From a virus: a DNA stretch of 43,593 bases. Made by a program: the position numbers and the translations under genes. Below, in pieces: positions 1 through 43,593 of the stretch. Position 1 is the stretch's first letter, and each line of letters begins with the position of its first letter. The DNA lies in the IMG/VR virus record IMGVR_UViG_3300023106_000016, positions 1 to 43,593 of that record; one strand, given 5' to 3'. A model generated the notes under the pieces. The model searched no databases and was not told the origin of the DNA. It saw only the letters and a program-made list of their open reading frames with translations.

Positions 1-135
1 GTTCCTGTCGCCGCTGTTCCTGTAGCCGCTGTTACTGTCGCCGCTGTTCCTGTCGCCGCTGTTCCTGTCGCCGCTGTTCCAGTTGCCGCTGTTCCTGTCG
101 CCGCTGTTCCTGTAGCCGCTGTTCCAGTTGCCGCT
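1..135 (-). repeat. 15-bp minisatellite, left part (9 units)
   Basis: Nine tandem 15-bp units, each coding S-G-x-x-N on the minus strand. Units differ only in the two variable codons (GAC AGG, TAC AGG, GAC AGT, AAC TGG). The array continues at 43360-43593. Repeats this similar can slip in replication and collapse in assembly. Confidence 0.95.
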
Positions 136-387
136 GTTACAAAATCCAGTGTTTTCTAAACCAGTATTAGCAATACCAGATTTTAAATAAATTTCTTGAT
201 TAAATTTAGAAAAATATTCGTGCGATAAAACTTTGTGATCTAAGCACCAATTAATATTTTCATAAATTACTTTTAGTAAATCAGCTTCATTTTCGGCTGA
301 TAAAAATCTTCTATACTCTGACGCACATGGATTTTCGGGTTTAACTTTTGTGTTAAGCTCTTCTTTTAAATTTTCAAATGTATTCAT
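1..387 (-). CDS. NSGxx pentapeptide-repeat protein, N-terminal part (cut by window start)
   Basis: The gene starts at the ATG at 387 and runs off the window at base 1 exactly in frame (129 codons). It continues at the window end (43593 to 43024) if the molecule is circular. About 84 residues of ordinary globular sequence (opening MNTFENLKEEL) lead through the degenerate units NTGLENTGF into nine perfect five-residue units of the form NSG-DR/YR/NW/DS. Each unit is one 15-bp DNA repeat. The repeats resemble the NxGxxNxGxxN pentapeptide class (PF01469-like), distinct from the A(D/N)LxX right-handed helix class. It is first in the early transcription unit, behind a consensus promoter at 492-521 and a structured leader. 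Function unknown. That this is a real gene is near certain; its full length is not known because the array is broken. Confidence 0.85.
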   Translation of the reverse strand, partial: MNTFENLKEELNTKVKPENPCASEYRRFLSAENEADLLKVIYENINWCLDHKVLSHEYFSKFNQEIYLKSGIANTGLENTGFCNSGNWNSGYRNSGDRNSGNWNSGDRNSGDRNSGDSNSGYRNSGDRN

Positions 388-491
388 CTTAATAAAAATC
401 CCTACTCAACAAAGGCAGTCCAGTTGTGCTGAATGCACTAAGGCAATGTTTTTCGGGAATTTATTTAATTTCTTTTTTACTGGCTGCGGTA
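388..491 (-). promoter_or_regulatory. Structured leader E1 of the repeat-protein gene
   Basis: This is the 5' leader between the promoter at 492-521 and the ATG at 387. The 5' segment (plus strand ACTGGCTGC, 479-487) is complementary to a downstream segment (GCAG 415-418 plus CCAGT 420-424). That downstream segment lies inside a weak stem (394-402 with 455-462, one bulge) followed by a T-rich run on the minus strand just before the start codon. The layout is the same as leaders E3-E5, but the closing stem is weaker. Attenuator or antisense-like role inferred from base pairing only. Confidence 0.5.
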
Positions 492-521
492 CAAATATAC
501 ACAAATAAAAACACCCACCAA
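492..521 (-). promoter_or_regulatory. Bacteroidota-type promoter P1 (TTG-N19-TATATTTG)
   Basis: On the minus strand TTG (521-519) is followed after exactly 19 bases by TATATTTG (499-492), a perfect match to the known Bacteroidota -33/-7 pattern. The TTG lies inside the stem of the terminator at 512-537, so the terminator of one unit and the promoter of the next overlap. It should drive leader E1 and the repeat-protein gene. Confidence 0.75.
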
Positions 522-632
522 ATTTAATTGGTGGGTGCCGTTAATAATATGGGGTGAACCGCCCACTCTCCATTTTTAAACCATTACCTTCGCGGGGCTT
601 GGATAGGAACGATAAATCTCATTAGTCTTTCC
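503..632 (-). ncRNA. Candidate independent small RNA E2 (P2 to terminator)
   Basis: A consensus promoter (638-667) sits about 100 bases upstream of the strong terminator at 512-537 with no credible ORF between, so a transcript of roughly 130 nt is expected. Within it GGAA/TTCC and ATGG/CCAT segments can pair, but no long stem other than the terminator is visible. Unlike E1, E3, E4 and E5, the terminator loop is only 6 bases and I see no match to the 5' end. It could alternatively be a decayed leader. Confidence 0.45.
512..537 (-). terminator. Intrinsic terminator closing the late/lysis operon
   Basis: A perfect 10-bp stem (512-521 with 528-537, CACCCACCAA/TTGGTGGGTG) with a 6-base loop is followed on the minus strand by TTTTTATTT. 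It lies downstream of the last lysis gene (ends 657), so it should stop both late transcripts and the short transcript from P2. Confidence 0.85.
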
Positions 633-637
633 TCATA

Positions 638-667
638 CAAATATAATACTTATTTCCTATTCCACAA
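638..667 (-). promoter_or_regulatory. Bacteroidota-type promoter P2
   Basis: Minus strand TTG (667-665), 19 bases, TATATTTG (645-638). It overlaps the last codons and stop of the holin-like gene, so it is an internal promoter at the operon end. Its only visible product before the terminator at 512-537 is the short RNA E2. Confidence 0.7.
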
Positions 668-30029: not shown

Positions 30030-31472
30030 TTACTTAATTATTATATCAGCGTAATTTAGTGTGGTATCTGCTATAATATGGTTCCACCAACCATACTTCC
30101 ATTTTGAGTACCCGGCAAATTCTTTTAAAAATGATTCGCCTTTTTGTTTTGCTATTCGAGTTGCAAAAGGTTTTTTATTTGTCATTTGAACGTATTGAAA
30201 CAATTCAAGGGCTGACAAGGTACTAATTTTTCTGCCTCGTAAATTATTATATTTAGCCGTAATTTCAACAAGTTCCGTTTCTTTTATTTCCTCTTCAGTA
30301 GGTTCATGCATTGTTATTTCTCCGCATTCGGGACACGGATTTGTTTTAACATGCATCATGAAACCACATTTTTTACATATTTTAATAGGCGCTACACCTT
30401 CTTTTTTTGGTTTTTGGTTCCACATATCATGCCATGGATGCTCATAGTTCCATGGCTTATGTCGTGTACCGTTACGGCCGTAATCAACAATATTAAACTT
30501 ATTTTTACCTGGGCTTAATCGGCTACCACGTCCACACATTTGAGCATAAAGCGGTAGTGATAATGTTGCTCGGTTAAGCATAATTAAATCAACAGCAGGA
30601 CAATCAAAACCTTTTGTAAGTGATGCAACAGACACACATATATTATTTGATCCGTTAGTAAATTCAAACAATTCATAATCTGTATTTTTGTTTTTGCTAT
30701 GGCATTCAGAAACATTATAGTTTAGTATTCTGAGTTTTGTAACAACATCTTGACAGTGTTTAATTGAAGCGCAAAATATCATGCATTTATGAAACTTAAA
30801 TAGCTTTAAATCTTCAATTAAGCCGTCAAAAACTTCAGCTTTTTCAAAAACAGCCTCTTGGCTTGATTCAGTATAATCCCCGGTACTTGATTTTTCAAGC
30901 TTTGAAAGATCTGCTACCTGCCTCTCATAATGATAATAAGGGCTTAAGAATCCATTTTCAACTAATTCCTGTGGCTGTGGGCCTATAACAATAGACTTAT
31001 ATAATTCAGGTAGGTGTTTAGCTTTACGATAGTCAGGTGTAGCAGTAAAACCTATTAAATAGGCATCTGATAACTGTTGTAAAAGTTTTGTAGGGGTTCC
31101 AATATGGGCTTCATCTGTAATTATTAAAAGGTGTTTACCTAAATTATTAAATTGATCAATTAATCCTTTACGTTTAGCTAATGTTTGAGCCATGGCAACA
31201 TAGATTTTATTTGGTTCAACATAAAATTCTTTTATGCCATCACCAATATTAATTGTGTCGCCAATTTCTTTATGAATTTGACTGTAAATGCTTGTCGATT
31301 CTGAAATAATTAAAACGGTTCTTTTATGTTCAATCGAACCCCTTGCAATTGAGATAAACACCTTTGATTTTCCTGATCCGGTAGCCGCACATGCTAACAC
31401 TTTTTCATTTAACTTGATACTTGATCGAATATCTTGTATAAATTTTTCCTGGTATGGTCTTAGTTTTATCAT
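30030..31472 (-). CDS. SF2 DNA helicase (ResIII/SSL2-like) with C-terminal zinc ribbon
   Basis: 480 residues. Motif Q/I: LRPYQEKFIQDI, then AATGSGKS (29-36); II: ITDEAHIG (DEAH 120-123); III: GFTATP (141-146); VI: QMCGRGSRLSPGK. After the helicase core comes a zinc ribbon (CKKCGF...CPECG, about residues 370-390). Similar phage helicases open origins or remodel recombination intermediates. The gene starts 2 bases after the 31474-31794 gene and is under leader E3. Confidence 0.88.
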   Translation of the reverse strand: MIKLRPYQEKFIQDIRSSIKLNEKVLACAATGSGKSKVFISIARGSIEHKRTVLIISESTSIYSQIHKEIGDTINIGDGIKEFYVEPNKIYVAMAQTLAKRKGLIDQFNNLGKHLLIITDEAHIGTPTKLLQQLSDAYLIGFTATPDYRKAKHLPELYKSIVIGPQPQELVENGFLSPYYHYERQVADLSKLEKSSTGDYTESSQEAVFEKAEVFDGLIEDLKLFKFHKCMIFCASIKHCQDVVTKLRILNYNVSECHSKNKNTDYELFEFTNGSNNICVSVASLTKGFDCPAVDLIMLNRATLSLPLYAQMCGRGSRLSPGKNKFNIVDYGRNGTRHKPWNYEHPWHDMWNQKPKKEGVAPIKICKKCGFMMHVKTNPCPECGEITMHEPTEEEIKETELVEITAKYNNLRGRKISTLSALELFQYVQMTNKKPFATRIAKQKGESFLKEFAGYSKWKYGWWNHIIADTTLNYADIIIK

Positions 31473-31473
31473 A

Positions 31474-31794
31474 TCAGAATGGTAAATTATTTACATTAGT
31501 AATTTCATGTAAATTTGGTTCGTCCCCTCCAAATTTAACCTCAATTATATCAACATAATCAGTTGAATAAACAAAATCAAAAAGTTCCTGTCTTTTTAAT
31601 TCATAATAATTTGAATCTTCCCATCCTTCTTTTGATCCGTCTGGTGAAACAAAAAATGAATAGTAAGCATTCATCCTTGTATTTATTACATTACTTACTA
31701 AATGCCCTATCAATTCTTTTGCTTTTCTGTTTACAATTCTTACGTTTTTTTCTGAACCTACAACAATAATTGAATGATGTTTAATGTATCCCAT
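31474..31794 (-). CDS. Conserved small phage protein before the helicase
   Basis: 106 residues (MGYIKHHSIIVVGSEKNVR...). It contains SFFVSPDGSKEGWEDSN and ends EITNVNNLPF. This MGYIKHHxIIV family recurs in Bacteroidota phages, to my recollection, without known function. It is the first gene behind promoter P3 and leader E3. Its ATG lies 13 bases after the terminator U-run, so its expression and that of the helicase depend on read-through or on upstream transcription. Confidence 0.65.
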   Translation of the reverse strand: MGYIKHHSIIVVGSEKNVRIVNRKAKELIGHLVSNVINTRMNAYYSFFVSPDGSKEGWEDSNYYELKRQELFDFVYSTDYVDIIEVKFGGDEPNLHEITNVNNLPF

Positions 31795-31802
31795 ATTAAA
31801 TA

Positions 31803-31930
31803 AAATTAAAAAACCGTTATTGATGCGCCTGGGTTACTATCCCTAGACCGGCTCTAACCCCAGTCAACACACCAATAACGGTCTAAATGTTTTTATGTTA
31901 GAGTATATGAATCGGTTAGTTACTCCGATA
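31803..31930 (-). promoter_or_regulatory. Structured leader/attenuator E3 upstream of the helicase unit
   Basis: From the promoter at 31936-31966 an RNA of about 128 nt ends in a perfect 10-bp stem (31813-31822 with 31873-31882) followed by TTTTTT on the minus strand. Its 50-base loop contains ACCG (31847-31850) and CTCTAAC (31852-31858), which are complementary, in order, to CGGT (31913-31916) and GTTAGAG (31897-31903) near the 5' end. Within the loop GGGTTA/TAACCC can also pair. The 5'-end-to-terminator-loop pairing is the same plan as in E4 and E5. Either a regulated attenuator or a free small RNA. Confidence 0.65.
31813..31882 (-). terminator. Intrinsic terminator of leader E3
   Basis: ACCGTTATTG/CAATAACGGT, 10 perfect pairs, then TTTTTTAATTTT on the minus strand; loop of 50 bases is itself structured. 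Located 13 bases before the ATG at 31794. Confidence 0.7.
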
Positions 31931-31935
31931 TGCTG

Positions 31936-31966
31936 CAAATATACGCCTTATTTATTACAATGGCAA
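31936..31966 (-). promoter_or_regulatory. Bacteroidota-type promoter P3
   Basis: Minus strand TTG (31966-31964), 20 bases, TATATTTG (31943-31936). Near-perfect match to the Bacteroidota housekeeping consensus. Confidence 0.72.
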
Positions 31967-31969
31967 ATT

Positions 31970-32203
31970 CTAAAACAATTTTTGTTGGTTTTTTATATCT
32001 ATTTCGATTTGAGATCTACCGATTAATTTACGCTTTTTTAAACCTAATTGTTTAAGGCTTTCATCGCTCCAAATCTTTCTCATGTGGCCGTATTGGCCTG
32101 GATTGTTAGAAGATAAAATTTTCTTAATTACTTTTATTTCCTTACATTCGTTTTCCTTTATAATCTCTGCAATCTGTGGGGCGTAATATTCTCTCCAGCT
32201 CAT
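31970..32203 (-). CDS. Small basic protein with C-terminal QQKLF
   Basis: 77 residues, basic (SLKQLGLKKRKLIGRSQIEIDI). It ends in QQKLF, the same five residues that end the DNA methyltransferase just upstream. QxxLF fits the beta sliding-clamp binding motif. Its start overlaps the methyltransferase stop by one base (TAATG-type coupling). The fold is helical; possible DNA-binding or clamp-recruited accessory protein. No family recognised. Confidence 0.6.
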   Translation of the reverse strand: MSWREYYAPQIAEIIKENECKEIKVIKKILSSNNPGQYGHMRKIWSDESLKQLGLKKRKLIGRSQIEIDIKNQQKLF

Positions 32204-32865
32204 TAGAATAATTTTTGTTGGTTAGTATGCTGTTCAATGCGTTTCATTGCAGCGTTGTAATAGTCTTCGTTTATTTCATATCCAATAAAATCTCTATTTA
32301 AGTTGTGGCAAGCTATCGCAGTAGTGCCTGATCCAGAAAAACAATCAAGAATTAAATCACCAGGTTTACTGCTTTTTTCAATTAAGAATTCCATCAAATT
32401 AACTGGTTTTTGAGTAGGATGTAGCTCGTTATCAGTTCTTTTAGCTTTAATAATGTTTGAGTGCCTACCATTATTTAATTTCTTATTTCCATTAGAAATA
32501 AATAAACACATTTCATATTTAGGGGCGTAATCCCCATAAAGATCACCCATGCCAGTATTATTCTTTTCCCAAATCAATATATTTTTAACATTAAACACGC
32601 TTTCAAATTCTTTTTTAAAAACATCAACATTATGCCAGCTGCAGAAAATATACAAATGCGCATCTTCTTTAGACACTCTTTTCAAATCTAAAACCCAACC
32701 AGGAAGCCACTCTAAATTAGAATCATTTTCTATTTTTATGTGTTTTTCTTTTCTATAATTTGATTGAAAAGACATTCCATAAGGTGGATCAGTAGCAACT
32801 ACATCTATAGAACCTGTTGATACCTCATGTAAACCAAAACATGATCCTTTTATTAATTTTATCAT
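32203..32865 (-). CDS. DNA adenine-N6 or cytosine-N4 methyltransferase
   Basis: 220 residues. DPPY (26-29, in VVATDPPYGMSF) precedes the SAM-binding LDCFSGSGTTAIAC (FSGSGTT 174-180), so motif IV comes before motif I: the beta-class order. HPTQKPVNLMEFLI is the typical segment before motif I. No recognition-domain extension, so short target. No restriction nuclease adjacent, so probably an orphan methylase protecting phage DNA from host restriction. The C-terminus NQQKLF is a likely clamp-binding tail. The ATG sits only 5 bases after the U-run of leader E4's terminator. Confidence 0.9.
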   Translation of the reverse strand: MIKLIKGSCFGLHEVSTGSIDVVATDPPYGMSFQSNYRKEKHIKIENDSNLEWLPGWVLDLKRVSKEDAHLYIFCSWHNVDVFKKEFESVFNVKNILIWEKNNTGMGDLYGDYAPKYEMCLFISNGNKKLNNGRHSNIIKAKRTDNELHPTQKPVNLMEFLIEKSSKPGDLILDCFSGSGTTAIACHNLNRDFIGYEINEDYYNAAMKRIEQHTNQQKLF

Positions 32866-32869
32866 AATT

Positions 32870-32923
32870 AAAAAAAGCCCGAATAAATCCTTGGGGTCTC
32901 ACGCCAATTCATTATCCGAGCTT
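32870..32923 (-). terminator. Intrinsic terminator of leader E4
   Basis: Minus-strand AAGCTCGGATAA pairs with TTATTCGGGCTT (two G-U wobbles) and is followed by TTTTT. It is so close to the methyltransferase ATG that it should affect both transcription and ribosome access. Confidence 0.75.
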
Positions 32924-32962
32924 GTTTAAGTTCGTTAATTCCCGTATAGTTGAGACCGGAAT
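32870..32962 (-). promoter_or_regulatory. Structured leader/attenuator E4 upstream of the methyltransferase
   Basis: A 12-bp stem (32875-32886 with 32912-32923, two G-U pairs) followed by a T run forms a terminator that ends 5 bases before the ATG at 32865. Its 25-base loop contains GGTCTCA (32895-32901), perfectly complementary to TGAGACC (32951-32957) at the 5' end of the RNA. The two pairings interlock (a-b-a'-b'), so a pseudoknot or an antiterminator is possible. Promoter box at 32968-32975. Confidence 0.65.
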
Positions 32963-32967
32963 GTTTG

Positions 32968-32975
32968 TAAATATA
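32968..32975 (-). promoter_or_regulatory. -7-like box TATATTTA before leader E4
   Basis: One base off TATATTTG; a TTG lies 15 bases upstream, shorter than the usual 19-21. Weaker than P1-P3 and P5, but positioned like them relative to the leader. Confidence 0.4.
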
Positions 32976-32979
32976 CTAA

Positions 32980-33219
32980 TTAATCCTCACCAAGCACCCA
33001 TTTAAGGGCTGTTATTACTTGCCTGATGGTTTCCGATTCAATTCTATTCCCAAAACGTTCAAATGCAGTCATTGTATTCTCTAACTCAGCTACCCTCTCC
33101 TTTATCTCCTCCTTAGATTTTATTTCAGTTTCTGACAATGCGATAAGAGATCCTTTCAAATCATACATTTGGTCTTGATAATTATCTAAAATATCTTTTA
33201 TTAATTCCTGTTTGTTCAT
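32980..33219 (-). CDS. Small coiled-coil protein behind leader copy R1
   Basis: 79 residues, strongly helical and charged (NKQELIKDILDNYQDQMYDL, SKEEIKERVAELENTMTAF), probably a short coiled coil. No homologue recognised. It starts 22 bases after the 115-bp leader element R1 and shares the sequence ACTAATAATTAATTTTGA before its ATG with the gene starting at 41653. Its neighbour downstream is the methyltransferase leader E4. Confidence 0.6.
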   Translation of the reverse strand: MNKQELIKDILDNYQDQMYDLKGSLIALSETEIKSKEEIKERVAELENTMTAFERFGNRIESETIRQVITALKWVLGED

Positions 33220-33240
33220 GTTTTCTCAAAATTAATTATT

Positions 33241-33355
33241 AGTGAATGTTTAGGCCACGTCTGCCAGTGGCGTTTATTAGTGATTAAATAACGGTTGCAT
33301 TGACCGTCATATATAAGCCTAAGATTACCTAATTTGGCTTTACGGAAGGCGGTTA
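33241..33355 (-). repeat. Leader element R, copy 1
   Basis: 115 bp, 108 identical to copy 2 at 41933-42047 with no indels. Hairpins: GCCAC/GTGGC (33254-33271), ACGGT/ACCGT (33291-33307) and AGCC/GGCT (33316-33339). The first two hairpins are identical in both copies; the mismatches gather in and around the third. It sits between a stop (33375) and a small-gene ATG (33219). No promoter box seen. Confidence 0.85.
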
Positions 33356-33374
33356 CTTTTTATTCAATGATTAA

Positions 33375-33641
33375 TTATACCTTCACACTATATCTTTCAT
33401 AAACACAATTCTTTTTATTTAGCAATTCATCACTCAATTTATGATATTCACAAAATGGAACTATAGCCCCAAACCAAAGTGTACCATCCAAACTAATATT
33501 ATCTTTTCTTTTCGCATATTGATAAACCGGAAAATCACATCCATTCTCACAACACTTATGGACGTTTTCAGATTCAAACATACACCTATAATACGTTATA
33601 TTTGCCAACTCTCCTTTTTCTGTTTTAAATGTGTGTTGCAT
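33375..33641 (-). CDS. Small Cys-rich, probably metal-binding protein
   Basis: 88 residues. Cysteines at YRCMF, HKCCENGCDF and FCEYH, with histidines nearby (C...HKCC...C...CEYH), suggest a zinc site. Not recognised. It is translated right after 33646-33936 (spacing 4 bases) and before leader R1. Such small zinc proteins in phage early regions often inhibit or redirect host enzymes; here that is only a possibility. Confidence 0.55.
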   Translation of the reverse strand: MQHTFKTEKGELANITYYRCMFESENVHKCCENGCDFPVYQYAKRKDNISLDGTLWFGAIVPFCEYHKLSDELLNKKNCVYERYSVKV

Positions 33642-33645
33642 GGGT

Positions 33646-33936
33646 TTATTCAGGTTTAAGTTTATTCCAAAGTTCTAATTTTGCCTCTTTAATGTTTTCC
33701 TCACCAGCTATTTCGTTTGCCATATACAAATAAAAATCACGTCTTTGGTTCATAGTTAAGCTTCTGTATTTATAATTATCATCTTCAGGAGAATAATGTT
33801 TCCATTTTCTTTTACCTTTTGATAAAGTCCAAATAGATAAATTATATTGACATCCTCTTAACATGTCTATCCAGCAGGAAACACAAATTTTAAGCTTATC
33901 GCCGTTTTCTTTTACTATTATTTTCTCGTGATTCAT
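33646..33936 (-). CDS. Hypothetical early protein
   Basis: 96 residues (MNHEKIIVKENGDKLKICVSCWIDML...). Basic aromatic middle (WTLSKGKRKWKHYSPEDDNYKY) and a helical C-terminus (DFYLYMANEIAGEENIKEAKLEL). C-V-S-C near residue 18-21 could bind metal together with cysteine 29. Start follows ATAAAATAAAAATAAG. No family recognised. Confidence 0.55.
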   Translation of the reverse strand: MNHEKIIVKENGDKLKICVSCWIDMLRGCQYNLSIWTLSKGKRKWKHYSPEDDNYKYRSLTMNQRRDFYLYMANEIAGEENIKEAKLELWNKLKPE

Positions 33937-33966
33937 CTTATTTTTATTTTATGCCACCATGGGCGG

Positions 33967-34107
33967 TTAGTTACAATAAAACCTTAATTCAAACCAATAA
34001 AACCATATTCTAACAACTGATATTTTACCCTTTTTTTCAGCTATCCAATGTCTGTTTATAATTATTTTGAATGGTTTAGGCGTTTTATATTTTCTGTATA
34101 TAAACAT
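33967..34107 (-). CDS. Small basic protein (46 aa)
   Basis: ATG at 34107, 7 bases after the previous stop, TAA at 33967-33969. The product is very basic and aromatic: MFIYRKYKTPKPFKIIINRH, then WIAEKKGKISVVRIWFYWFELRF. No signal peptide. It fills what would otherwise be a 177-base gap in a dense operon, and its position and spacing fit the unit, but at 46 codons chance cannot be excluded. Confidence 0.45.
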   Translation of the reverse strand: MFIYRKYKTPKPFKIIINRHWIAEKKGKISVVRIWFYWFELRFYCN

Positions 34108-34113
34108 CTCTAT

Positions 34114-34689
34114 TTACCCTTTGGTGTTTTTAAATTTGGTGTCCATAAATTTAGCGTGTGTAGCATAAGCATAACCATGCAATCCATTAGTTACCTCATG
34201 CATTACAAATGCTTCAATTTTAGTTTTTGGTTGATAAATTCTTAAACACCACCAACCTGATTTTAATAAATCTTTTGACGGTAAATCTATCCAATCACTT
34301 TCTTTACTCTCCGTTGGTTGGGTGAGGTAGGGTTTTACTTCAACCTTGCAATTACCATTAGGTAAATCCTCTACACTTACAAATCCAACTTCTTTATAAA
34401 TGCATATACTTTCAATGTCAGGGTGAATATCTCCATCCGCTATGTAATTCTCTTTAATTACTTTTTCCGCTTCTTTAAAAGAATCCACTTCTAAGAAATC
34501 ATTATCTATTGGTGAATAGATAACTAATTTGGTATCTTCCAAATCCGGTTTGTTTTGCTCCTGCCAGTATTCTGCACCTCTTATAAAATCATACTCGGAA
34601 ACTTTTCGTTCAAGATCTGTTGCGTTTGGCATTCTCAACGCATATTCTATTGCCGCTTCTCTAAGTTTTGCTTCTTGTTCCGTGTTCAT
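34114..34689 (-). CDS. Conserved hypothetical early protein
   Basis: 191 residues. The opening EAKLREAAIEYALRMPNATDL...FIRGAEYW and ESDWIDLPSKDLLKSGWWCLRIY are patterns shared by early proteins of Bacteroidota phages, to my recollection. Function unknown. It follows the YqaJ-like nuclease gene by 11 bases in the recombination part of the early operon. Confidence 0.6.
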   Translation of the reverse strand: MNTEQEAKLREAAIEYALRMPNATDLERKVSEYDFIRGAEYWQEQNKPDLEDTKLVIYSPIDNDFLEVDSFKEAEKVIKENYIADGDIHPDIESICIYKEVGFVSVEDLPNGNCKVEVKPYLTQPTESKESDWIDLPSKDLLKSGWWCLRIYQPKTKIEAFVMHEVTNGLHGYAYATHAKFMDTKFKNTKG

Positions 34690-34700
34690 AGGGTTAGGGT

Positions 34701-35423
34701 TTAAGGGTTAATTTTACCAAGTTTTGATTTCATTTTAATGTCATATTCTGTTAGCCATTTCCTGCATAATATAACACGATCCTGTATTTCCTTTATAATT
34801 AACGGATCATGATGAGCGGTGTAAGCTACCCATCTGGATTCTACAGGCATATCGTCAAATACTATTTCAGGTGTCCAATCTGTTTCAGGCGTATTCATTA
34901 GCCCGGTAAATAATATACCTTTATTTTTACGCCACAAATGCATATACACACGTAACTGATATTCATGTTCAATAGATAAACCTTCATCAACTCGGTCATG
35001 TAAAGTTTTTCTATTCCAGGCAGCCTTAACGTCACAAATAGCATCAGGGAACTCAATGTCGCATTCACCGTCAAAGTACTCATCAGATAGCCTTATTTTG
35101 TTTTTCTCAGCCATTCCGTAACCTAATTGTTCCGCTGCAAAGTCGATTAAATCATCTTCAACGGCGATACCTTTGTCCAGGTATTTTGATCTTATTTCTT
35201 CCTGGTCGTTTGCGTACCATTCTTTAAGGTAAGTTGTGCAAGTATCTGGAAGCTTTGGATTATCAAATTTAATGATAAGATCCTGCATTGTTGATTCTTG
35301 TATTGGAGTGCGTTTAGGCTTATTTCTTAACTCAACAAGCGTTTCTAATTGTTTATCTGTTAAACCAATCCTGCCCATTATTTTGCTGCATTGGCTTGCT
35401 CTTATTCTGAATAGTTTTTCCAT
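34701..35423 (-). CDS. YqaJ/RecB-like PD-(D/E)XK recombination exonuclease
   Basis: 240 residues. RIRASQCSKIMG at the start and a glutamate in GIAVEDDLI recall YqaJ viral recombinases. The core FDGECDIEFPDAICDVKAAW supplies the metal-binding D and the D-x-K lysine, and EHEYQLRVYMHLW matches the following Q-x-Y motif. It would resect double-stranded ends to expose single strands for annealing. The adjacent upstream gene 35425-35952 is the natural partner. The start ATG is 2 bases after that gene's stop. Confidence 0.78.
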   Translation of the reverse strand: MEKLFRIRASQCSKIMGRIGLTDKQLETLVELRNKPKRTPIQESTMQDLIIKFDNPKLPDTCTTYLKEWYANDQEEIRSKYLDKGIAVEDDLIDFAAEQLGYGMAEKNKIRLSDEYFDGECDIEFPDAICDVKAAWNRKTLHDRVDEGLSIEHEYQLRVYMHLWRKNKGILFTGLMNTPETDWTPEIVFDDMPVESRWVAYTAHHDPLIIKEIQDRVILCRKWLTEYDIKMKSKLGKINP

Positions 35424-35424
35424 G

Positions 35425-35952
35425 TTATTTTGTTTCAGGCGTTAATAATAATTTCTCCACTTCGCTACTTACCTGGTATTTTTGCCTGATCTGATCAATA
35501 GTATACCCGCTTTTTTCAATAGCTGTTTTTGCTTTTTGGAAGTTTTCGCTATCCTTAATTAATTCAGGTAAAATGTATTTTTTGAAGCCAACGACGTGGC
35601 CATGTTTCCTATCAGGCTTCGCATACATAATAAAAGGAATGTTTGGATCGACATCATCAATGTATAAAGAACCGTTAGCCAATTCTTTAGCCATGAAATT
35701 TGCTCTTGCTACATTTAACAGGCATGGTTTGTATAGCATTTTACCGGTTTTACAGTCTATTAAATAAATAGCCGTTTTATTTACTTCTGCCTGTGCCTTT
35801 TGATCAAATGCCGGAGCATCTGTAAATTTTGCCATTGTAACTATCATTTCCGGTTTTAATCCTTTGCCCATACCTTCGCCGTTTAATAAATCTTCACCGC
35901 TTATGTAGCGTTTATCTAAGTTTTTTCTGAATGGTGTTTTTTGCGTTTCCAT
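35425..35952 (-). CDS. Probable partner of the recombination nuclease (ssDNA-binding or annealing-type candidate)
   Basis: 175 residues. MAKFTDAPAFDQKAQAEVNKTA, KTGKMLYKPCLLNVARANFMAKEL and DPNIPFIMYAKPDRKHGHVVGFKKY are visible blocks with basic patches. The C-terminus is helical. Genes of this appearance sit next to YqaJ-like nucleases in Bacteroidota phages, so an OB-fold or annealing role is plausible, but no Erf, RecT or Rad52 motif is evident. Assignment by neighbour only. Confidence 0.5.
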   Translation of the reverse strand: METQKTPFRKNLDKRYISGEDLLNGEGMGKGLKPEMIVTMAKFTDAPAFDQKAQAEVNKTAIYLIDCKTGKMLYKPCLLNVARANFMAKELANGSLYIDDVDPNIPFIMYAKPDRKHGHVVGFKKYILPELIKDSENFQKAKTAIEKSGYTIDQIRQKYQVSSEVEKLLLTPETK

Positions 35953-35970
35953 CTTATTTTATTTTAATAA

Positions 35971-36234
35971 TTAATACTCTAAATATTCGCCATATTCCTC
36001 ATATACGGCATCTTGTAAGTCTTCTAGTGTAACTAGTATAGTGCCAGTGTGATCGTATCTGTATGCACCAAATGATTCGTAAATTACTACGTGATCTAAC
36101 TGATAAACATACATATCCAGTGAGTTACTCCATTGCTCTGTAAAACCTATGGATTTTAGTAGGCGGTTTGTTAGTATTGGATTTTCTTTCACTGGATTTT
36201 TAAAGGTTGGTTGGTTGTAGTCTGATTCGGTCAT
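35971..36234 (-). CDS. Small acidic early protein
   Basis: 87 residues, acidic C-terminus (EDLQDAVYEEYGEYLEY), with MYVYQLDHVVIYESFGAYRY in the middle. Similar to short phage proteins of the 'LGFTxxxx...VxIYExxxxYRY' kind, unknown function. Its ATG overlaps the TAA of the coiled-coil gene 36234-36407 (TAATG). Confidence 0.6.
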   Translation of the reverse strand: MTESDYNQPTFKNPVKENPILTNRLLKSIGFTEQWSNSLDMYVYQLDHVVIYESFGAYRYDHTGTILVTLEDLQDAVYEEYGEYLEY

Positions 36235-36407
36235 TATAATTCTTTAAACTGTTTAAGTTCATATTTAAGGTCTTCGTTAACTGCCATTAATCGTTCAATA
36301 TCATTTTCTAATTCAGTGATTTGTTCATCACGATTAATTATAGCATATTCAAAGTCTTCTAGGATGTGTTTAATATCGTTAAACTTTCTTTCTAGTGCTT
36401 TTTCCAT
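36234..36407 (-). CDS. Small coiled-coil protein (57 aa)
   Basis: From the ATG at 36407 to TAA at 36234-36236, which overlaps the next ATG. It is almost entirely helical and charged: EKALERKFNDIKHILEDFEY, then NRDEQITELENDIERLMAV and EDLKYELKQFKEL with leucine/isoleucine heptads. Typical of short phage coiled-coil proteins. Tight coupling to both neighbours supports it. Confidence 0.65.
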   Translation of the reverse strand: MEKALERKFNDIKHILEDFEYAIINRDEQITELENDIERLMAVNEDLKYELKQFKEL

Positions 36408-36409
36408 GA

Positions 36410-36742
36410 TTATTCGGTTGCTTTTTTAATTGCTAATTCTATTTTATTAGCTAACTCCGCATCAATAGCCACACTAAATAACATTTCATTTGCTAAAATC
36501 AAGGCTTCTAATAATTCTGGAGCAGCGGATATTAATTTAGCGTTAGATTCCACCATTTTTATGGTTTTTACGCTTATATCCTCATTTGGCAATATACATA
36601 TAGCTGTACATGTTGACCCTCCGTCAGCATCCTTCAATGAAGATATTGGATAAATGGTGTGTGGCATTCTTAGATGTCCAATAAATACGTTTTCTATTTT
36701 TGAGTCTAAAGCCCAAGGCCCCGGAGTGTGTTTTGTTTTCAT
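36410..36742 (-). CDS. HTPGPW-family phage protein
   Basis: 110 residues. The KHTPGPW start and the MVESNAKLISAAPELLEALILANE helix are the signature of a small family found in very many phages and prophages, function unknown. Cysteines in STCTAICILP. It is the first gene behind promoter P5 and leader E5. The ATG lies 16 bases after the terminator stem, in the same arrangement as the genes behind E3 and E4. Confidence 0.8.
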   Translation of the reverse strand: MKTKHTPGPWALDSKIENVFIGHLRMPHTIYPISSLKDADGGSTCTAICILPNEDISVKTIKMVESNAKLISAAPELLEALILANEMLFSVAIDAELANKIELAIKKATE

Positions 36743-36754
36743 AACTTTTATAAA

Positions 36755-36852
36755 TTATAAAAGCCCGTGCCATTGGAGTAGAAGTCCGCCGGCAAGGGCT
36801 ATTAAATTAGTTTCGATTGTTTGAGTGAGAAGCTTCTACCATTCTCCAATCG
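36755..36852 (-). promoter_or_regulatory. Structured leader/attenuator E5 upstream of the HTPGPW gene
   Basis: Terminator stem 36762-36766 with 36796-36800 (AGCCC/GGGCT) plus 36768-36771 with 36791-36794 (TGCC/GGCA), then a TTTT run on the minus strand. The loop holds 12 consecutive bases TTGGAGTAGAAG (36773-36784). These are complementary to two blocks near the RNA 5' end, CTTCTA (36833-36838) and CTCCAA (36844-36849), separated by 5 bases. The plan is the same as E3 and E4. Confidence 0.68.
36758..36800 (-). terminator. Intrinsic terminator of leader E5
   Basis: Nine pairs with one mismatch, 19-base loop, followed by TTTTATAATTT on the minus strand. Ends 16 bases before the ATG at 36742. 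Confidence 0.65.
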
Positions 36853-36857
36853 TTCTG

Positions 36858-36887
36858 CAAATATATTAATTATTTTTTAATCGGCAA
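36858..36887 (-). promoter_or_regulatory. Bacteroidota-type promoter P5
   Basis: Minus strand TTG (36887-36885), 19 bases, TATATTTG (36865-36858): full consensus match. The -33 region lies in the gap 5 bases downstream of the 36892 stop codon. Confidence 0.75.
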
Positions 36888-39955: not shown

Positions 39956-39994
39956 AATCTTTTTTTTACCGTAGCAACATCACTACATCGTAAA

Positions 39995-40019
39995 GGTATT
40001 ACCTTAATTTGGTAATACC
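39995..40019. promoter_or_regulatory. Palindromic operator GGTATTACC-N7-GGTAATACC
   Basis: Perfect 9-bp arms separated by 7 bases, beginning at the last base of the -7 box at 40019-40026 and covering the expected start site. Occupancy would block transcription. A candidate RHH repressor is encoded two genes downstream. Confidence 0.65.
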
Positions 40020-40026
40020 AAATATA
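40019..40026 (-). promoter_or_regulatory. -7 promoter box TATATTTG
   Basis: Minus-strand TATATTTG upstream of the ATG at 39955. A TTG lies 14 bases further upstream, off the preferred distance, so the operator-controlled promoter may be weaker or need an activator. Confidence 0.55.
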
Positions 40027-41912: not shown

Positions 41913-41932
41913 TTTATGTAAAATTTATTATT

Positions 41933-42047
41933 AGTGTATGTTTAGGCCACGTCTGCCAGTGGCGTTTATTAGTGATTAAATAACGGTTGCATTGACCGTC
42001 ATAGATTAGCCTGAAGTTACCTAATTTGGCTTTCCGGAAGGCGGTTA
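41933..42047 (-). repeat. Leader element R, copy 2
   Basis: 115 bp with 108 identities to 33241-33355 and no gaps. Identical GCCAC/GTGGC and ACGGT/ACCGT hairpins; an AGCC/GGCT hairpin is kept. It lies between the RNA-ligase stop (42060) and the ATG at 41912, the same setting as copy 1. Confidence 0.85.
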
Positions 42048-43023: not shown

Positions 43024-43593
43024 TTAGTTTACTTTTATGCCAGTTATCTCTTCGAATTTAATCGCATCGAAATTAGGTAAATTTAAAAACTCATTTTTAT
43101 TTTCATCCGTAAAGTTGTGCCATGCATTTTTCCAAGCATCTTTCATTGAAAGAGTTTTTAAAAAACCTTCTGTTGTTTCGTGTTTAGGATTGTTTTCTTT
43201 TTCTAAATCGGTCATTTGACTTGATGGCACCCAAATAGTTGTTTCAATAGAATACATTATATTAAAGGCGTTGCTATTTTCCCAATCTTTTACTAAAATA
43301 TTTGTCGGTTTATCAAATAATATCATAGTTGGGTTTGTGTCGGTACAAAAAGCACCGCTGTTCCTGTAGCCGCTGTTACTGTCGCCGCTGTTCCTGTCGC
43401 CGCTGTTCCAGTTGCCGCTGTTCCTGTAGCCGCTGTTACTGTCGCCGCTGTTACTGTCGCCGCTGTTACTGTCGCCGCTGTTCCTGTCGCCGCTGTTCCA
43501 GTTGCCGCTGTTCCTGTCGCCGCTGTTCCTGTAGCCGCTGTTCCTGTTGCCGCTGTTCCTGTCGCCGCTGTTCCTGTCTCCGCTGTTCAAGTT
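43024..43593 (-). CDS. NSGxx pentapeptide-repeat protein, C-terminal part (cut by window end)
   Basis: The frame enters from the window end with NL-NSGDR and contains 15 perfect five-residue units. It then leaves the array (NSGAFCTDTNP) for a 100-residue C-terminal domain: NPTMILFDKPTNILVKDW, TIWVPSSQMTDLEKENNPKHE, LSMKDAWKNAWHNF, NLPNFDAIKFEEITGI. Domains of this kind (DUF7666-like) follow NSG/NxG repeats in many phages, to my recollection. With 1-387 it forms one gene of at least 318 codons if joined. Function unknown; a virion, decoy or surface protein are options. Confidence 0.85.
   Translation of the reverse strand, partial: NLNSGDRNSGDRNSGNRNSGYRNSGDRNSGNWNSGDRNSGDSNSGDSNSGDSNSGYRNSGNWNSGDRNSGDSNSGYRNSGAFCTDTNPTMILFDKPTNILVKDWENSNAFNIMYSIETTIWVPSSQMTDLEKENNPKHETTEGFLKTLSMKDAWKNAWHNFTDENKNEFLNLPNFDAIKFEEITGIKVN
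43360..43593 (-). repeat. 15-bp minisatellite, right part (15 units plus a partial)
   Basis: Fifteen perfect 15-bp units from 43360 to 43584 and 9 bases of another. Same unit types as 1-135. The partial unit GTTCAAGTT is a variant not seen elsewhere in the array. Confidence 0.95.

Follow-up and report, generated by a model that had tools for sequence, protein, structure and literature searches.

Phage leaders on one plan: an intrinsic terminator whose loop is complementary to the 5' arm of the RNA

To our knowledge, little has been learned about how Bacteroidota phages control their early genes, and we know of no described layout in which a terminator has its apical loop tertiary-paired to the 5' region of the RNA. 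Antisense kissing complexes of 7-8 bp are known. Among phage RNAs that act on transcription, the CI RNA of satellite phage P4 brings about premature termination before the replication genes (PMC4825925), and HK022 put, transcribed from immediately beyond PL, is short and structured and needs no phage protein (PMC9378689). For flavobacteria, PMC9723704 gives TAnnTTTG as the sigma-A -7 consensus.

The virus record analysed here (43.6 kb, its whole length being called the window) has promoters of this Bacteroidota type (TAnnTTTG) and nearly all of its genes on the minus strand. Searches of Rfam 15 with the window returned only a tRNA at threshold. For leader E3 the best match was S15-Flavobacteria, at 25.9 bits against a gathering threshold of 46.5 (E=3.3), loci of the E3 family gave no match up to E=1, L132, L134 and L135 gave none, and elsewhere only AT-rich miRNA or snoRNA chance matches came up. 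We found no description of such leaders in the main texts of open-licence papers, in agreement with an earlier note on this DNA that knew of no described phage RNA class of this layout.

Four leaders in the window

Leaders E1, E3, E4 and E5 all lie on the minus strand, and in each we found the order that the earlier note had claimed: promoter, a, b, a', b', T run and ATG, with b and b' forming the terminator stem (Table 1). Full-consensus promoters had been assigned to three of them, and indeed TATATTTG with a TTG at 19/20 nt precedes E1 (499), E3 (31943) and E5 (36865), the E4 promoter being TATATTTA only. The proposal that a stands at the RNA 5' end and pairs with the terminator loop holds for the complementarity, but a of E3 is placed in a linker behind a 5' hairpin, the loop of which makes a separate contact with the hairpin P4. 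The primary sequences differ between the four leaders, as had been stated; other phages, however, contain clear relatives by sequence of both E3 and E1.

Table 1. Positions of the leader features and adjoining genes in the window
Feature	Position	Strand	Sequence and remarks
E3 promoter, -7 box	31936-31943	-	TATATTTG; TTG 31964-31966, spacer 20
E3 P1 hairpin	31911-31929	-	ATCGG-AGTAACTAA-CCGAT; loop ACTAA (31916-31920) pairs with P4 loop
E3 segment a	31897-31903	-	CTCTAAC; in linker; covarying helix
E3 b, terminator stem 5' arm	31867-31881	-	14/15 pairs change on both sides
E3 P3 hairpin	31846-31865	-	GACTGG-GGTTAGAG-CCGGTC; 8-nt loop holds a' GTTAGAG (31852-31858)
E3 P4 hairpin	31831-31843	-	GGG-ATAGTAA-CCC; loop TAGT touches P1 loop
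E3 intrinsic terminator	31808-31828	-	b' 31814-31828; TTTTTT 31808-31813
Gene after E3, phrog_11375	31474-31794	-	unknown function
ResIII-type helicase	30030-31472		with primase-like genes, behind the phrog_11375 gene after E3
E4 leader	32870-32975	-	TATATTTA 32968-32975; b 32912-32921; b' 32877-32886; T7
E4 P1 hairpin	32939-32961	-	contains a GGTCTCA (32951-32957)
E4 P3 hairpin	32891-32907	-	contains a' TGAGACC (32895-32901)
Gene after E4	32203-32865	-	N6/N4 DNA methyltransferase
E5 leader	36758-36865	-	TATATTTG 36858-36865; hairpin 36814-36852 containing a (36833-36850)
E5 terminator parts		-	b 36791-36800; a' CTTCTACTCCAAT 36772-36784; b' 36762-36771; then TTTTA
Gene after E5, phrog_1273 family	36410-36742	-	unknown function
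E1 leader	394-499	-	TATATTTG 492-499; a GCAGCCAGT 479-487; b 447-459; P3 426-438
E1 terminator parts		-	a' ACTGGACTGC 415-424; b' 399-411; T5 394-398

With 4000 dinucleotide shuffles of each leader's 5' segment as the reference, the a:a' complementarity gave p=0.0035 for E5, p=0.005 for E1, p=0.12 for E4 (not significant) and p=0.22 for E3 (within chance); the window by itself thus makes a convincing case for two leaders, E1 and E5. The form of E4, two hairpin loops in a 7-bp contact, fits the class, and a:a' of E3 is accepted despite its value when taken alone because 27 homologues show complete covariation.

E1-type leaders comprise E1 of the window, L036:7190, L014:6372, L114 and L117, which have most of ACATTGCC and P3 in common; their a:a' is different in each, with complementarity kept. 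A pattern scan for the E1 motif at its true gap of 39 yielded no additional relatives. In the terminator stem of this type (399-411 with 447-459 in the window), CCCGAA / AGTAGGG resembles a bulged-G (loop E, sarcin-ricin) motif. An E1-type leader identical over ~100 nt is found before NUMOD4-HNH endonuclease genes in L036 (7198-7300), L041 and L054, with differing promoters; in L054 the gene behind it diverges past the first codons, and the E1-type cassette sits at the start of the exonuclease gene, with a second copy of that gene's first codons upstream. Furthermore, both contig ends of the window (1-141 and 43355-43593) fall within one tandem NSG-coding repeat; the genome is therefore probably circular, with the record cut within a single repeat-rich gene whose leader would be E1.

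Other structured elements were seen in the window. At 513-645 (minus strand), a full-consensus promoter (TATATTTG at 645, TTG spacer 19) is followed ~120 nt on by ACCCACCAATTAAATTTGGTGGGT-GTTTTT, a strong terminator; no gene is obvious in between, and this is likely a free-standing small RNA just upstream of E1. A 128-bp element occurs twice with 93.75% identity (33228-33355 and 41920-42047), directly upstream of two unrelated small genes; it has several hairpins (ACGGT..ACCGT, GCCAC..GTGGC) and is read as a duplicated leader of another type. At 39990-40026 (minus strand), TATATTTG stands immediately before a perfect hairpin of 9 bp, GGTATTACC..GGTAATACC, where the transcript is expected to begin.

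Covariation in the E3 family

Contig L014 was reached through the window's exonuclease protein; it carries two leaders built in this way, ahead of an HNH endonuclease and a primase. A motif common to E1 and L014 led on to L036, L041 and L054, and a descriptor scan of those contigs found a leader in L036 with the same 5' hairpin as E3. When 2.9 million viral contigs were scanned, 45 contained the hairpin TCGGAGTAACNAACCGA, most of them with a complete E3-type leader from promoter through ATG. The resulting covariance model, R1, defines an E3 family of 42 phage-contig copies including E3, which scores 122.5 bits (E=2.6e-22), being itself among the 18 model sequences, and has every R1 feature (P1, a:a', b:b', P3, P4 and the P1:P4 contact). 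As the family was fetched by its P1 sequence (a 17-nt search word), conservation of P1 is uninformative, and the rest is independent evidence.

Segments a and a' form seven Watson-Crick pairs out of seven in 27 of 28 distinct copies, with 14 different a sequences, and crossing a with a' among copies gave a match in only 1 of 182 combinations. Between L036 (GAGTAAC/GTTACTC) and E3 (CTCTAAC/GTTAGAG), the change is a triple compensatory one. In alignment A1 (18 sequences), 98.2% of 733 cells are paired, where sliding the partners leaves 28-42%, and both bases vary in 27 of the 41 pairs; none of 500 shuffles did as well. By helix, pairing is 100% for a:a' (5/7 covarying), 98.1% for the terminator stem, 96.1% for P3 and 100% for P4. 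According to the earlier note, the idea would fall if a:a' in related phages were no better than shuffled sequence, and this was not the outcome. There is also a second tertiary contact, between the loops of P1 and P4, in which G:C and T:A are switched in step: in all 28 copies, the P4 loop has C where the P1 loop has G, and A where it has T. Covariation shows this E3-family structure, made up of P1, a, the b/b' stem, P3 with a' in its loop pairing with a, and P4 with its loop on that of P1.

The frequent G-U pairs in the terminator stem point to an RNA in the sense of the gene. A T run of at least five follows the stem in 25 of 28 copies, and the start codon lies 2-7 nt past the end of the R1 match in all 39 copies with a readable start. 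Furthermore, a linker copy such as AACATTTAG can form a competing hairpin with the terminator 5' arm, with 84% of cells paired where slid partners reach 49% at most; folding of RNA prefixes predicts this hairpin as well. It is a candidate antiterminator of the E3 family, E3 itself keeps it only in part, and in other subfamilies it did not emerge as a general feature. The genes behind these leaders encode a helicase-methyltransferase, a VapE/BT4734 primase, DUF6291, a DUF3987/Prim-Pol primase, a methyltransferase and small unknown ORFs; because they are mutually unrelated, what is constant is the leader and not the gene.

The same plan in other phages

For the wider class we scanned 0.99 Mb of phage DNA, mostly from Bacteroidota phages and with the E3 family left out, for a promoter followed by a 70-165 nt leader with a T-tailed stem and an open ATG. 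Counting near relatives, 22 leaders reached -28 kcal/mol or lower, against 2, 2 and 3 with decoy promoter words; the decoy GT..ATTT was discounted because of its overlap with the real promoter, GTATATTT. Among isolated phages, 11b, elemoA, mumin6-1, hattifnatt9-1, Polaribacter P12002L and Cellulophaga phi3:1 have leaders that follow the plan but are unrelated in sequence; mumin6-1 and hattifnatt9-1 are phages of Flavobacterium. In Flavobacterium 11b, a/a' is CGGGCAGG/CCTGCCCG; mumin6-1 has two leaders (helicase-VirE region and NUMOD4 endonuclease), hattifnatt9-1 one at a helicase and P12002L one at a replication protein. Several leaders have two small hairpins facing each other with 8-nt loops, which we read as 7-bp kissing loops: GTAG-GGTCGTAG-CTAC and AGAG-CCTACGAC-CTCT in P12002L, GTAG-AGTCGTCG-CTAC and AAAG-ACGACGAC-CTTT in mumin6-1, and GATG-AGTCGTGG-CATC and GAG-ACCACGAC-CTC in L101.

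In 16 non-redundant leaders selected blind to a:a', pairing of a with its own a' gave -14.3 kcal/mol against -9.1 for crossed partners, with p=1.5e-4, an approximate value as cross pairs are not independent; this shows complementarity beyond chance in the wider class. The central idea of the earlier note, one plan in different sequences with a terminator loop complementary to the 5' arm, was thus borne out by covariation, by the decoy promoters and by the own-versus-crossed test. We consider the element to be real, covariation-proven for the E3 family and well supported as a class, its function being inferred.

Protein homologues of the E3 and E5 genes had no leaders in common, and blastn of the leaders against known phages was uninformative; a match in Tenacibaculum JQ was rejected as a coding coincidence. 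In the related phage L015, a promoter-like block (tttgaaaatgtagtgcaaat..gTACTTTTG) recurs at several sites, with leaders that are short and plain; we saw no RNA of the present kind there.

Function and known systems

Anatomy makes attenuation the best-supported function, and we hold with moderate confidence that the leaders are cis-acting transcription attenuators; the earlier note had left the choice between attenuators and small RNAs, and the latter may also be formed. By sequence, an intrinsic terminator is present between the promoter and the first gene. Polymerase would start at the host-type promoter and either stop at this terminator, ~10 bases before the start codon, or continue into the phage gene or operon behind it, which frequently serves DNA replication or modification. 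As a' lies upstream of b' and is made before it, the nascent RNA can form a:a' before the terminator exists. This pairing would then hold the RNA in a fold enclosing the terminator 5' arm, which in most E3-family members would sit in the small competing hairpin, until b' emerges and the RNA refolds as the terminator, with the tertiary contact tying it. Read-through would depend on the balance between the two folds, and the timing or strength of termination on the tertiary contact. In energy folding of RNA prefixes, a:a' formed before b' in most of 10 members of the E3 family and in 13 of the 14 other leaders, E5 being the exception; in folding of the full RNA, the terminator wins.

Against attenuation stand the weak T runs of some leaders (E5 TTTTATAA, L014:1006 GGGTTAATTTATTT), which fit better a 5' UTR element for stability or translation, whose tied fold would shield the mRNA 5' end and show an unpaired U/A-rich start region, termination being incidental. 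The short fixed spacing to the start codon also suits such an element, but it is unlikely, because 25 of 28 E3-family members have a G/C-rich stem that runs straight into five or more Ts, E4 has T7, and the T runs of P12002L and L117 are long. Attenuation has two further points against it: the kissing contact could equally strengthen termination, and the downstream genes are without a common function pointing to a ligand. A polymerase-modifying RNA, a folded leader riding on host polymerase that then ignores its own and later terminators as with put, is very unlikely: these leaders do adjoin promoters of phage operons, as put does, but put consists of two stem-loops and, as described in PMC9378689, lacks its target terminator, whereas here the terminator is within the fold.

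The terminated leader might instead be a small RNA whose a or a' binds the leader being transcribed from another copy and turns the operon down, giving self-immunity or autoregulation in trans as in P4. The 7-8 bp contacts in small hairpin loops, the replication genes downstream, the premature termination caused by CI RNA in P4 (PMC4825925) and a sequences that differ without cross-pairing (1/182) would agree with this; however, cis pairing already explains the a:a' match, variation with matching preserved is what any conserved RNA stem normally shows, and we noticed neither a separate antisense gene nor any sign of lysogeny in these phages, so that we regard it as improbable. It is distinctly doubtful that a tied terminator leader combines both roles, working in cis and, after termination, also on sister genomes in trans, as a phage-specific RNA self-recognition. 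If true, the matched diverse loop pairs would be each phage's own RNA-only replication control and immunity, without a repressor protein. An HDV-like self-cleaving ribozyme, considered on account of the a-b-a'-b' order, was rejected with no Rfam match and with a starting at about the transcription start, and a DNA-level inverted repeat is disfavoured by the G-U pairs and the fixed orientation to promoter and gene.

If they are attenuators, their layout would provide a compact switch for transcription that can be re-addressed. The RNA recurs at the promoters of early genes, replication genes among them, and phages in culture from Flavobacterium, Polaribacter and Cellulophaga have it too. On a practical matter, R1 with its 42 copies could serve as the basis for a new Rfam entry.

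By analogy, the leaders would work most like intrinsic attenuators, P4 leader termination or put RNA. With P4 they share a phage leader RNA, premature termination before replication genes and short complementary segments, but CI RNA pairs with seqA/seqC as an antisense (PMC4825925), whereas here the partner lies in the terminator loop of the same leader and the terminator is intrinsic. HK022 putL/putR are likewise short structured RNAs beside an early phage promoter that act on transcription; they differ, as far as the available part of PMC9378689 describes them, in having two stem-loops, no internal terminator and no kissing contact, and in belonging to another host phylum. The structured 5' regions of Flavobacterium psychrophilum come from the same phylum, with the same promoter type and reported attenuation, but concern chromosomal genes, and the available part of PMC9723704 mentions no such motif. 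Terminator-type riboswitches and pseudoknotted leaders have pseudoknots, loop contacts, a competing hairpin and a terminator before the gene in common with the leaders described here, which differ from them in having no Rfam match, genes without a common pathway and a terminator stem that itself closes the folded domain.
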